Part shown: positions 16,357-60,572 of the stretch, one piece after another | How positions within the stretch are numbered: position 1 is the first letter of the stretch | Layout of the letters: every line of letters begins with the position of its first letter | Source of the DNA: Streptomyces yatensis | GTDB taxonomy: Bacteria; Actinomycetota; Actinomycetes; Streptomycetales; Streptomycetaceae | Direction: 5' to 3' | Assembly (NCBI RefSeq): GCF_018069625.1 | Contig: NZ_CP072941.1 | Coordinates: 7,316,001 to 7,380,000, forward strand | DNA: 64,000 nucleotides | Program-made: the position numbers and the translations under genes | The notes under the pieces: generated by a model | Told to the model about the DNA's origin: nothing | What the model saw: only the letters and a program-made list of their open reading frames with translations | The model's database searches: none

Positions 16357-17427
16357 TCACGGGGGCGTGGGCACCGGCTCCCGCGCCGACTCGCGCACGG
16401 GGTCCCGCACCAGTTCCCGCACGGGTTCCCGGGGGACGGTGGCGGGCTCGCGCACGGCCTCATCGGGTGCGCGGCTCTCCGGCACGGCTATCTCGCGTAC
16501 GGCCGCGTCGCGTGCGGTGGCCCGCCGTACGGTCGCGGCGGCCTCCCGTACGGCCACGGCGTCCCCGCGCACGTCCGCGCCCGCCTGGGGAGCCCGGGAG
16601 AGCAGGACCACGCCGCGCGCGGCCGCCGCCGCGCCCGCGGCGGCCAGGGCCCAGCCCGCCGGGCCGCCCCGGAAGCGCTCGTCCAGCAGGACGATCCCGA
16701 TGGCGGCGGCCGCCACCGGGTTGGCGAGGGTCAGGGTCGCGAGGGGTGCGCCGAGGCCGCTGCCGTAGGCGCTCTGGGCCAGCAGCAGACCGCTCACCGC
16801 GAAGACCGCGACCAGAACGGCCACGATCACGGCCCGCCAGGACACCAGGGCCGCCCCGGGGACGCGGGAGTCCGCGAGCGCGACCGTGAGGGTCTGGGTG
16901 AGCGCCGAGGCGACGCCGGAGGCGACCCCGGACGCGGTGGCGTGCCGCAGCCCCCGGCCCGGCGTCCCGCGTCCGGTGCGCCCCGGCCGGACGCACAGCG
17001 CGATGAACACCAGGACGACGCCCGCGAGCCCGGCCGCCTGCGGCAGGCTGAGCGTGTCGCGCGGGGTCTCCCCGGCGGTGACCGGCAGCAGGGCGCCGAG
17101 GCCGAGCAGTGCGAGGGCCACGCCCCGCCACTCCTTCCGGGCCACCCGCCGCCCCGCGAGCCGCGCGCCCAACGGCACGGCCGCGACCAGGGTCAGCGCG
17201 CCGAGCGGCTGGACCAGGGTGAGCGGTCCGTACCGCAGCGCGGCCACATGCAGCAGGGCACCGGCGGAGTTGAGGCCGACGGCGCCCCACCAGGCACCGC
17301 GCAGCAGCAGTCCCGGCATGCGGCCCGGCCGCCCGCCGGCGGCCAGCCGCTCCTGGGCCACCGCGGCGGTCGCGTAGGCGACGGCCGAGGCGAGCGCGAG
17401 CGCGACGGCTATGACGGTCGGGTTCAT
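16357..17427 (-). CDS. EamA/DMT-type membrane transporter
   Basis: A 356-residue protein with about nine or ten hydrophobic helices (residues 4-295), laid out as two EamA-like halves as in drug/metabolite transporters; LTLVQPLGALTLVAAVPLGARL and LATLTLANPVAAAAIGIVLLDERF are the equivalent conserved helices. The last 60 residues are a hydrophilic tail of repeated VREP/VRDP units, encoded by a low-complexity stretch at 16370-16480. The ATG at 17427 follows GGAAGG. It is divergent from the TetR gene across a five-site operator array, so TetR probably represses it. Substrate unknown. Confidence 0.85.
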   Translation of the reverse strand: MNPTVIAVALALASAVAYATAAVAQERLAAGGRPGRMPGLLLRGAWWGAVGLNSAGALLHVAALRYGPLTLVQPLGALTLVAAVPLGARLAGRRVARKEWRGVALALLGLGALLPVTAGETPRDTLSLPQAAGLAGVVLVFIALCVRPGRTGRGTPGRGLRHATASGVASGVASALTQTLTVALADSRVPGAALVSWRAVIVAVLVAVFAVSGLLLAQSAYGSGLGAPLATLTLANPVAAAAIGIVLLDERFRGGPAGWALAAAGAAAAARGVVLLSRAPQAGADVRGDAVAVREAAATVRRATARDAAVREIAVPESRAPDEAVREPATVPREPVRELVRDPVRESAREPVPTPP

Positions 17428-17480
17428 CCACCGTGCCTTCCTCTGGGCGCCCATCTGCCTGGCGCCATCGGCACACAAAC

Positions 17481-17554
17481 GTATCGATACGAGAGTGTAC
17501 CGGTTCGGAGCTGTATCGGTACATGGGTGTATCGGTACGAGGATGTGTCGGTAC
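17481..17554. promoter_or_regulatory. five-copy phased palindromic operator array
   Basis: Five 10-bp palindrome-like sites begin at 17481, 17497, 17513, 17529 and 17545, exactly 16 bp apart: GTATCGATAC, GTACCGGTTC, GTATCGGTAC, GTATCGGTAC and GTGTCGGTAC. The consensus is GTATCGGTAC. They lie between the divergent TetR gene and the permease, so TetR is the obvious binder. The filler between sites is not conserved, as expected for separate half-operators rather than a simple tandem repeat. Confidence 0.8.
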
Positions 17555-17601
17555 ACTGCGTGGTCGGGGGTCCGGAGTCCGGTGACCGAGGAGGAGAGCC
17601 G

Positions 17602-18222
17602 ATGGCGACGCAAGGCCCGGAGACGGCCGCGCCGCAGCGCCGTTCAAAGATCAGCCCCGAGCGGGAGCAGGAGTTCTACCAGGCGGTCCTGGACCTGCTC
17701 CAGGAGGGCGGCTACGAGGCCCTCACCATCGAGGCGGTCGCCGCCCGCACCCGCGCCAGCCGCTCCACCCTCTACCGGCAGTGGTGCAGCAAGCCCCAGC
17801 TCGTCGTCGCCGCGCTGCGCTCGTGCAAGCGCCCCTTCGCGCTGGAGGGCATCGACACCGGCTCGCTCGCGGGCGATCTGCGCGCCGTCGCGATGGCGGT
17901 GGGGGAGGCGGGGGAGGTGTGCGGCGGTGACACGGCGCTGGTGTACGCCGTCGGGCACGCCGCGCTGCAGGACCCCGATCTGCTGCAGGCGCTGCGCGCC
18001 GCGCTGATCGAGCACGAGGTGAAGACGATCCAGGCGATGGTCCGCCGGGGCGTGGAACGCGGCGAGGTGGCCGCGGACAACCCCGCCGTCGAGTTCGTCC
18101 CCACCCAGCTGATCGGCGCGATGCGGGTCCGCCATCTGCTGGAGGGCCGGTTCGCCGACCGCGACTATCTGACCCGCTTCCTCGAGGCGTCGGTCTTCCC
18201 CGCCCTCGGGCTGGCGCCGTAG
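17602..18222 (+). CDS. TetR-family transcriptional regulator
   Basis: A 206-residue TetR repressor. The DNA-binding domain covers about residues 20-66 (VLDLLQEGGYEALTIEAVAARTRASRSTLYRQW), followed by a C-terminal ligand-binding/dimerisation domain of the TetR_C type. The ATG at 17602 is set by GAGGAGAG just upstream; the longer open frame through the intergenic repeats is spurious. It is divergent from the EamA-like permease, and five palindromes fill the gap. Probably represses itself and the permease and is released by a small molecule. Confidence 0.92.
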   Translation: MATQGPETAAPQRRSKISPEREQEFYQAVLDLLQEGGYEALTIEAVAARTRASRSTLYRQWCSKPQLVVAALRSCKRPFALEGIDTGSLAGDLRAVAMAVGEAGEVCGGDTALVYAVGHAALQDPDLLQALRAALIEHEVKTIQAMVRRGVERGEVAADNPAVEFVPTQLIGAMRVRHLLEGRFADRDYLTRFLEASVFPALGLAP

Positions 18223-51977: not shown

Positions 51978-52005
51978 CAATACGATACGGTCTCGTATCG
52001 TATTG
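51978..52005. promoter_or_regulatory. 12-bp-arm palindromic operator of the DHA2 exporter
   Basis: CAATACGATACG (51978-51989), four bases GTCT, then the exact complement CGTATCGTATTG (51994-52005). It lies 18 bp before the exporter ATG, likely overlapping its promoter. The TetR regulator encoded downstream in the same operon is the likely binder. Confidence 0.75.
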
Positions 52006-56839: not shown

Positions 56840-57680
56840 CGGCGGATCTTTCCCCCACCCCGCCCCTCCCCGAACCCGGGGGCCGCCCCCGGCCCCCGCC
56901 CGGGGCTCCGCCCCAGGACCCCGCCCGGGGCTCCGCCCCAGGACCCCGGCCGGGGCTCCGCCCCAGGACCCCGGCCGGGCTCCGCCCCAGGACCCCGGCC
57001 GGGGCTCCGCCCCAGGACCCCGGCCGGGGCTCCGCCCCAGGACCCCGGCCGGGGCTCCGCCCCAGGACCCCGGCCGGGGCTCCGCCCCAGGACCCCGCCC
57101 GGGGCTCCGCCCCAGGACCCGCCCGGGGCTCCGCCCCAGGACCCGCCCGGGGCTCCGCCCCAGGACCCCGCTCCTCAAGCGCCGGAGGGGCTGATTGGTT
57201 CCGCCCCGGCCGGGGCTTGGCCCCAGACCCCGGCCGGGGCTCCGGCCCAGGACCCCGTTCCTCAAGCGCCGGAGGGGCTGGTTGGTTCCGCCCCGGCCGG
57301 GGATTCGCCCCGGGGGGCCTGGCTGCGGCCCCCGGCCGGGGCTTGGCCCCGGACCCCGACTGGGGCTTCGTGCTGGATCCCGGGGCCGGGGCTCCGCCCC
57401 CGACTTCGGAACTGGGGCTCCGCTCGGCCCCGGAATTGCGGCTCCGCCCCCGACCCGGGGCCCCGGGCGGGAAACCCCTGCGACTCGGCCGAGCCAATCC
57501 AGCCCCTCCGGCGCTTGAGGAGCGGGGTTCAGGGGCGGAGCCCCGGTCGGGGGCTGGGGCGGAGCCCCAGTTTCGGGAAGGGGCGGGGAGGGGAACAGCC
57601 CGCCGCAGGCGTCACGCCCCGTCGCACACCCCTAAGCGCCCGCTGGACACGTTGCCGGGGCAGACCGCCCCGGATCCCGT
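56840..57680. repeat. long GC hairpin array
   Basis: No gene. From 56901 to about 57175 there are 11 copies of a 25-bp unit whose core is GGGGCTCCGCCCC, separated by AGGACCCCGGCC-type spacers, and each copy can fold. Then follow more degenerate copies, two CTCCTCAAGCGCCGGAGGGG motifs (about 57168 and 57252), one inverted (57499-57527), and an inverted copy of the repeat also found at 18246-18301 (57554-57609). It will act as a strong terminator and recombination-prone sequence. Confidence 0.8.
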
Positions 57681-60337: not shown

Positions 60338-60383
60338 GCGCCCAGTGTAATCGTCTGTCTGACGCGATAGCCGGGGGTGTCTG

Positions 60384-60572
60384 CCTTCTCACGCCTGCGG
60401 CCTGGTCGCGCGCCGCCGGCCCTCTCGCGCCTGCGGCCCTCTCGCGCCTGCGGCCCTCTCGCGCCTGCGGCCCTCTCGCGCCTGCGGCCCTCTCGCGCCT
60501 GCGGCCCTTTCGCGCCTGCGGCCCTCTCGCGCCTGCGGCCCTCTCGCGCCTGCGGCCTTCTCGCGCGCCGCC
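60384..60572. repeat. 17-bp minisatellite upstream of nadE
   Basis: Eight contiguous copies of CCCTCTCGCGCCTGCGG from 60420 to 60555 (the sixth has CCCTTT), with a degenerate copy on each side (60384-60400 and 60556-60572). It lies in a 357-bp gap between the multicopper oxidase stop and the nadE start. No gene or promoter is visible in the rest of the gap. Confidence 0.9.

Follow-up and report, generated by a model that had tools for sequence, protein, structure and literature searches.

The window, a 64,000-nucleotide stretch of the Streptomyces yatensis genome (contig NZ_CP072941.1, positions 7,316,001 to 7,380,000), contains five GTAYCGRTAC-like cores of 10 bp that recur with a 16-bp period between a tetR gene and a divergent permease gene (17481..17554, no strand assigned). 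This array probably serves the adjacent TetR-family autorepressor as its operator region, and dimers of this protein would tile the divergent promoter. Among relatives, the spacing of the sites is constant while their number varies. TetR-family autorepressors with multiple operators are already known, and the new aspect of the locus is a gapless, phase-locked array of varying length. No description of this array was found in the open-access literature that was searched, although one may exist elsewhere.

The five cores begin at positions 17481 (GTATCGATAC), 17497 (GTACCGGTTC), 17513 (GTATCGGTAC), 17529 (GTATCGGTAC) and 17545 (GTGTCGGTAC). A preliminary description of this DNA had reported five GTATCGGTAC-like sites between the two genes, and each start is indeed exactly 16 bp from its neighbour. 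One core is palindromic at five of five positions, three are palindromic at four of five, and the last core at fewer. Self-matching of the region reaches 0.64 at a lag of 16 and 0.68 at a lag of 32, and is at most 0.38 at all other lags from 5 to 39. The five 10-mers have an average pairwise identity of 0.84, compared to a maximum of 0.68 in dinucleotide-preserving shuffles of the whole window scanned at periods 12 to 25, and none of the 100 shuffled windows reaches the self-similarity of the array. Identities of 0.84 or more are also reached by two simple tandem repeats elsewhere in the window, one at approximately 56.9-57.1 kb that scores at periods 25 and 12 and another at 60.4 kb that scores at period 17. 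Thus, repetition by itself is not unusual in this stretch. Likewise, single GTATCGGTAC sites with at most two mismatches are not enriched, with 33 in the window versus a shuffled mean of 24, and with 7 of 100 shuffles reaching 33. The distinctive features of the array are its phasing and the conservation of this phasing, rather than the single sites or their repetition. The first of the two tandem repeat regions (56875-57311) consists of approximately 12 copies of the GC-rich 25-bp repeat CCCGGGGCTCCGCCCCAGGACCCCG, running on into related repeats, and the second (60383-60566) has 10.7 copies of a 17-bp unit with 90% matches.

A sixth, degenerate unit (CCATCGGCAC) is located in phase at 17465. 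The same position carries CTATCGGCAC in some close relatives and CTATCGGTAC in locus L014. When the 10.36-Mb genome was scanned for phased pairs with at most three mismatches, the window array (including the unit at 17465) was recovered together with one other place, which has three mismatches, and the reversed control pattern produced one match per strand. At C1:8795574, the genome has one other pair of closely spaced cores (15 bp), which was dropped, as it resides inside an open frame for a repeated peptide.

Comparative analysis began from tetR matches (E ≤1e-30, paralogues included). Of the 295 genomes searched in the genus, 273 contain one, and the matches lie at no fewer than 150 places. 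The 99 loci examined, including that of the window, comprise 30 loci, 60 of the 120 other tetR matches listed, and nine of ten named loci, all from Streptomyces except L047 (Streptacidiphilus). The 60 were chosen down the match list, with some skipped, while their upstream DNA was unseen, and the overall sample leans towards better-scoring orthologues. Locus L048 (29% identical) is left out of all counts, and counts given for 97 loci omit L039, which is on the same contig as L012, and L047. Phased sites are present upstream of tetR in 98 of the 99 loci, the exception being L047, where there is no array. Within these 98 loci, 380 of 410 distances between neighbouring matches are exactly 16 bp. 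The remaining 30 are either longer or arise from overlapping matches (6 or 10 bp) or, in six loci, from a degenerate outer site at 15 bp. With degenerate ends counted, four cores are present in 18 loci, five in 53, six in 20, seven in five, and eight in one (n = 97), and therefore the five sites emphasized initially are not a special number. The different spacing without a conserved motif that the preliminary description had also contemplated was not encountered among these relatives, which retain both the 16-bp phase and the motif. Because the loci share kinship, such counts overstate the number of independent events. The lead from the array to tetR, measured to a homology-derived start, varies by more than 100 bp.

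Scans with fewer constraints gave the same periodicity. With the gap between cores left free from 0 to 20 bp, matches were found in 97 of the 199 genomes scanned from the genus, and 143 of the 150 matches listed have the 6-bp gap that corresponds to a period of 16. The other seven have gaps of 2, 8, 10 or 13 and come from five places, and the reversed control yielded two matches, both in one genome. Class-wide, a perfect phased pair is present in 19 of 394 genomes, corresponding to 19 of 40 in the genus of the window and 0 of 354 others, with no match for the reversed control. A draw of nearer relatives contains the perfect pair in 41 of 73 genomes of the genus, in 0 of 15 from other families of the order, and in 0 of 32 from elsewhere in the class; within the family, both draws covered the genus of the window alone. 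The lack of a perfect pair does not equate to the lack of an array, since arrays without one exist, for example in genomes G013 and G087. In all 19 genomes from the class-wide scan, this tetR and the permease gene are found within the same 3-kb locus and, as judged from sequence, the array belongs to the adjacent tetR. Perfect GRTAC-N6-GTAYC sites occur outside the array at nine places in the S. yatensis genome versus 14 for the reversed control, and thus there is no sign of a regulon elsewhere in this genome. One isolated perfect GATAC-N6-GTATC site is present at 51984-51999 of the window, and genome-wide this kind of site is no more frequent than the reversed control.

The tetR gene (17602..18222, plus strand) codes for a protein of 206 amino acids with a predicted recognition helix at residues 54-63. 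Its product matches PF00440 (TetR_N helix-turn-helix) with 38.8 bits (cut-off 24, E 7.9e-10) and PF16859 (TetR_C_11) with 68.8 bits (cut-off 32, E 6.3e-19). It therefore has both the N-terminal helix-turn-helix and the helical ligand and dimerization domain of the TetR family (PF00440), to which it belongs. A structure model built from 43 sequences is all-helical with a pLDDT of 80.5, and the model from the single sequence is poor (pLDDT 55.7). Foldseek searches with the TetR model returned moderate matches, with best TM values of about 0.5-0.6 and with Ms6564, 2fq4 and SCO0332 among the first. On the other side of the array, the divergent gene (16357..17427, minus strand) encodes a 356-residue permease of the DMT family (NF038012 DMT_1, 58 bits, cut-off 50) and is the probable target. 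Profile matches thus support both of the flanking genes as they were named in the preliminary description.

In 96 of 99 loci, the DNA upstream of tetR includes a permease homologue, and in 82 of 99 (for example L033) a gene for a PAP2-family membrane phosphatase (PF14378) is located between the array and the permease gene. This arrangement suggests that the probable target in these loci is a PAP2-permease operon. A tblastn search places the PAP2 gene on the minus strand, pointing away from tetR, in 82 of the 82 loci that have it, and the possibility that the gene at this location is encoded on the plus strand was rejected on this evidence. In the clade of the window, there is no PAP2 gene at the locus and the array abuts the permease gene. 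The S. yatensis genome carries PAP2 relatives only elsewhere, and these are weaker matches (35-41% identity). The absence of PAP2 in this clade would represent the loss or replacement of one target gene.

The 10-bp palindromes that were originally proposed as operators are present, but they are probably not the operators themselves. The cores are more likely seams between adjoining 16-bp operators whose register is displaced by 8 bp. The likely operator is a 16-bp GRTAC-N6-GTAYC element that abuts its neighbours without a gap and has its dyad in the spacer. This register is favoured because of the manner in which arrays decay at their ends, the poor conservation of the spacer centre, and the layout of the operator of DarR. 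In inner units, which were chosen by consensus match, G1, T2, C5, G6 and C10 are invariant and the flanks are palindromic, whereas little information content is seen at the two central positions of the spacer. The DarR operator, TAGATACTCC-GGAGTATCTA, has the form GATAC-N6-GTATC, and so has the same half-sites and spacing as GRTAC-N6-GTAYC (PMC10636190).

It is unlikely that the same TetR instead reads the cores, with one dimer on each 10-bp GTAYC-GRTAC palindrome (14 bp if the flanks are included) and five separate operators with 2-bp gaps in the window. The near-palindromic cores, the invariant CG at their centre in the aligned units, and the extension of their symmetry by the flanks are all consistent with that arrangement. 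However, the half-site centres would be only 5 bp apart, which is too close for recognition helices that are separated by 39 Å in DarR (PMC10636190). The two registers also predict different decay at array ends. At 130 of 194 ends, the next core beyond the last perfect one retains a perfect inward half without a perfect outward half; at 21 ends the reverse applies, and at 43 neither half is perfect, a distribution that argues against the core register. Upstream ends (n = 97) have the inward half alone in 57 cases, the outward alone in six, and neither in 34, and downstream ends (n = 97) have 73, 15 and nine, respectively. If distinct end sequences are counted once (n = 70), there are 37 inward, five outward and 28 neither. 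The ends of the window array depart from this pattern, with neither half retained upstream and the outward half retained downstream, and the latter observation agrees with the core register. The outward half at this end may be held by a −10 box. Runs of perfect halves follow the spacer dyad in 57 loci, the core dyad in 16, and are mixed in 24 (n = 97). The core register also gains from the weakness of the end pattern when one mismatch per half-site is allowed, in which case the corresponding numbers are 27, 16 and 54 (n = 97). A comparison of inward and outward mismatches in terminal cores was set aside as a measure because it selects on the inward half.

In the spacer register, the window would contain a weak first operator, O1 (17470..17485, GGCAC-ACAAAC-GTATC), with one mismatch in the left half-site and none in the right. 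Putative operators O2 (17486..17501, GATAC-GAGAGT-GTACC) and O4 (17518..17533, GGTAC-ATGGGT-GTATC) have two perfect half-sites, whereas O3 (17502..17517, GGTTC-GGAGCT-GTATC) and O5 (17534..17549, GGTAC-GAGGAT-GTGTC) each have a single mismatch, in the left and right half-site, respectively. The series would end with O6 (17550..17565, GGTAC-ACTGCG-TGGTC), a single half-site with no mismatches on its left and three on its right. No strand is assigned to these elements. Among relatives, the number of spacer-centred operators, counted as runs in which all half-sites but at most one are perfect, is two in four loci, three in 30, four in 56, five in three, and six in four (n = 97). Positions 2 and 15 are asymmetric in 282 of 328 perfect operators. 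The first operator of an array mostly has one orientation and the last before tetR mostly the opposite, as would be expected if operators overlap two divergent promoters.

Candidate promoter elements are located within these operators. Outward-facing TACACT boxes are present on both sides of the array, inside end operators. The putative −10 box for the permease gene is within O2 (17494..17499, minus strand) and that for tetR is within O6 (17552..17557, plus strand), and a bound dimer would cover these boxes. The register of TACACT was defined by a start at core position 8 or its mirror. Of the outward TAnnnT matches in this register, the one farthest out reads TACACT in 81 of 97 arrays towards tetR and in 75 of 97 towards the permease gene. 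Some TAnnnT is present on both sides in 97 of 97 arrays, but the TA comes from the operator itself. In the last strong unit, 81 of 97 arrays have TAnnnT at the TACACT phase, and a different phase is seen in a single case. A scan with the sigma-70 consensus returned no promoter and no −35 element was identified.

From these features we infer a mechanism in which TetR dimers would bind end-to-end to 16-bp pseudo-palindromes of the form GRTAC-N6-GTAYC. The end operators would hold the −10 boxes of two divergent promoters, and the inner operators would cover the DNA between them. Without inducer, stacked dimers would exclude RNA polymerase from both promoters and keep tetR and the permease gene silent, and a ligand would presumably release the dimers. 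In most of the relatives examined, the silenced target would be the PAP2 phosphatase gene followed by the permease gene. Several observations count against this mechanism, namely the ends of the window array, the weaker end pattern with one mismatch allowed, the asymmetry at positions 2 and 15, the lack of a sigma-70 consensus promoter, the absence of TACACT from the operators inspected in a sister clade, and the lack of an array at L047. The components of this mechanism differ in their certainty. Binding of the array by the adjacent TetR is very likely and repression of both tetR and the permease gene is quite likely, whereas cooperativity has about an even chance of being correct, with only the fixed phase arguing for it. 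A step of 16 bp corresponds to 1.52 turns, so the angle between neighbouring dimers would be about 189 degrees, with alternate dimers on nearly the same face. This geometry agrees with the alternating helix faces envisaged in the preliminary description. More tentatively, and perhaps with one chance in three, the dimers form a gapless stack on alternating faces, with roughly four to six in the window and more in some relatives, that buries both −10 contacts and whose steepness is tuned by gain or loss of whole 16-bp operators while the phase is frozen.

Arrays of repressor sites with a fixed phase and varying length represent a natural series for relating operator number to the steepness and noise of a switch, and dozens of related genomes offer different array lengths for the same repressor, as well as a sister clade whose operator and recognition helix differ jointly at a constant phase. 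The packing of TetR dimers where neighbouring operators share no spare base pair is a further question to which the array is relevant.

It is also conceivable, but rather improbable, that tandem duplication of a promoter piece produced the repeats as by-products, with one or two sites that matter and the others carried as passengers. The number of sites is labile, with at least 23 changes in core number among the group A rows on a FastTree phylogeny. Moreover, S. rugosispiralis (L040) has one unit more than its near relatives, and inner operators are often oriented like an end operator. However, within arrays the cores are 86% identical versus 37% for the spacers, which suggests that the copies are old and that contact positions have been kept, although picking cores by consensus inflates the former value. 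In addition, a 17-bp spacing is absent among matches with at most two mismatches, and 15 bp occurs only at the outer degenerate site in six loci. Functionless tandem duplication as the sole cause was rejected because the spacers differ while the consensus-picked cores are alike.

Several characterized regulators resemble the proposed autorepressor in part; the comparisons that follow reflect the sections of the cited papers that were consulted. SCO7222 of S. coelicolor, a TetR-family regulator with a divergent gene, binds three palindromic operators that are nearly identical (TGGAACGNCGTTCCA) and share an intergenic region of 146 bp, forms three gel-shift complexes, and has a negative effect on a reporter of the divergent gene (PMC3511530). 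The use of several sites, which the preliminary description had considered uncommon for TetR regulators, is therefore already represented by this published case. Unlike the tiling proposed for the array, the SCO7222 sites are footprinted separately, two of the three closer to the regulator gene and the third closer to the target, and not as one block tiled end to end, and the divergent gene SCO7223 encodes a monooxygenase instead of a permease (PMC3511530). The TetR-tetO system also has divergent repressor and transporter genes and, as proposed for the window locus, operators for both promoters, but there are two of these and they are 15 bp long (PMC3511530). EthR of Mycobacterium tuberculosis is a TetR-family autorepressor that binds as a cooperative octamer in a divergent intergenic region and represses both genes (PMC5403819, citing Engohang-Ndong 2004). 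The pertinent account in PMC5403819 describes no periodic array of varying copy number.

DarR has one operator with two overlapping dimers that touch, whereas the window has several abutting putative operators; for several other TetR-family proteins, a dimer-of-dimers without significant direct contact is described (PMC10636190). Residues K44 and G45 of the DarR recognition helix align with residues 54 and 55 of the window TetR, although the fold similarity is only distant. BldC of Streptomyces also binds cooperatively to repeats of varying number, but it is a MerR-like protein that recognizes head-to-tail direct repeats rather than palindromes (PMC5859096). Membership of the BldC family was rejected for the window protein, which has a TetR_N domain and inverted half-sites.

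A different binder, such as a sigma factor reading the repeated TACACT or another regulator, is very unlikely to account for the array. The commonest oriented operator, GGTACACTGGCGTATC, does contain the −10-like TACACT. However, TACACT is often missing from inner units, and the class-wide scan never found the array away from this tetR (19 of 19). Furthermore, in a sister clade (clade B) the array sequence differs together with the TetR recognition helix while the phase is unchanged. The tetR genes of clade B are 49-58% identical to that of the window and have the same neighbours, with the permease gene in 13 of 14 loci and PAP2 in 14 of 14. Their operators, GAGAC-N6-GTCTC and GATAC-N6-GTCTC, repeat at 16 bp, with GTCTC/GAGAC half-sites and an unchanged gap of 6 bp. 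In the clade B stretches that were inspected, the operators contain no embedded TACACT. With the gap left free (0-14 bp), the clade B pattern is found at 15 places in 291 genomes. Fourteen of these have a 6-bp gap and a tetR gene. The other one, at L171, has a gap of 13 bp and lacks a tetR gene within its locus, and is left out of the clade B count.

The clade B recognition helix is TKCGKATLYRQW in 14 of 14 loci, with K51 and A55 in all 14, whereas S55 is found in all 98 group A rows and R51 in 98% of them. By our own line-up on the conserved helix motif, residue 55 aligns with Gly45 of DarR, which contacts the T of the TXC motif (PMC10636190), and this T is the base that is replaced in clade B operators. 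Groups A and B also differ at residues other than 51 and 55. Group C (L133-L155 except L136, L141, L152 and L154) has A55 together with a third operator, and so residue 55 alone does not set specificity. On the tree, two changes suffice between A, B and C (support 72 for the A branch and 100 for B and C), which makes the operator switch between A and B a single event. The group C paralogues have no adjoining permease or PAP2 gene in the loci fetched. Upstream of them is the palindrome ACGAAACNGTTTCGT, which occurs twice in 16 of 19 loci. The two copies are separated by 41-57 bp (by 46-48 bp in 11 of these loci), and the group C member in the S. yatensis genome (L151, G000:C1:4304991-4305584) has one ACGAAACNGTTTCGT site.
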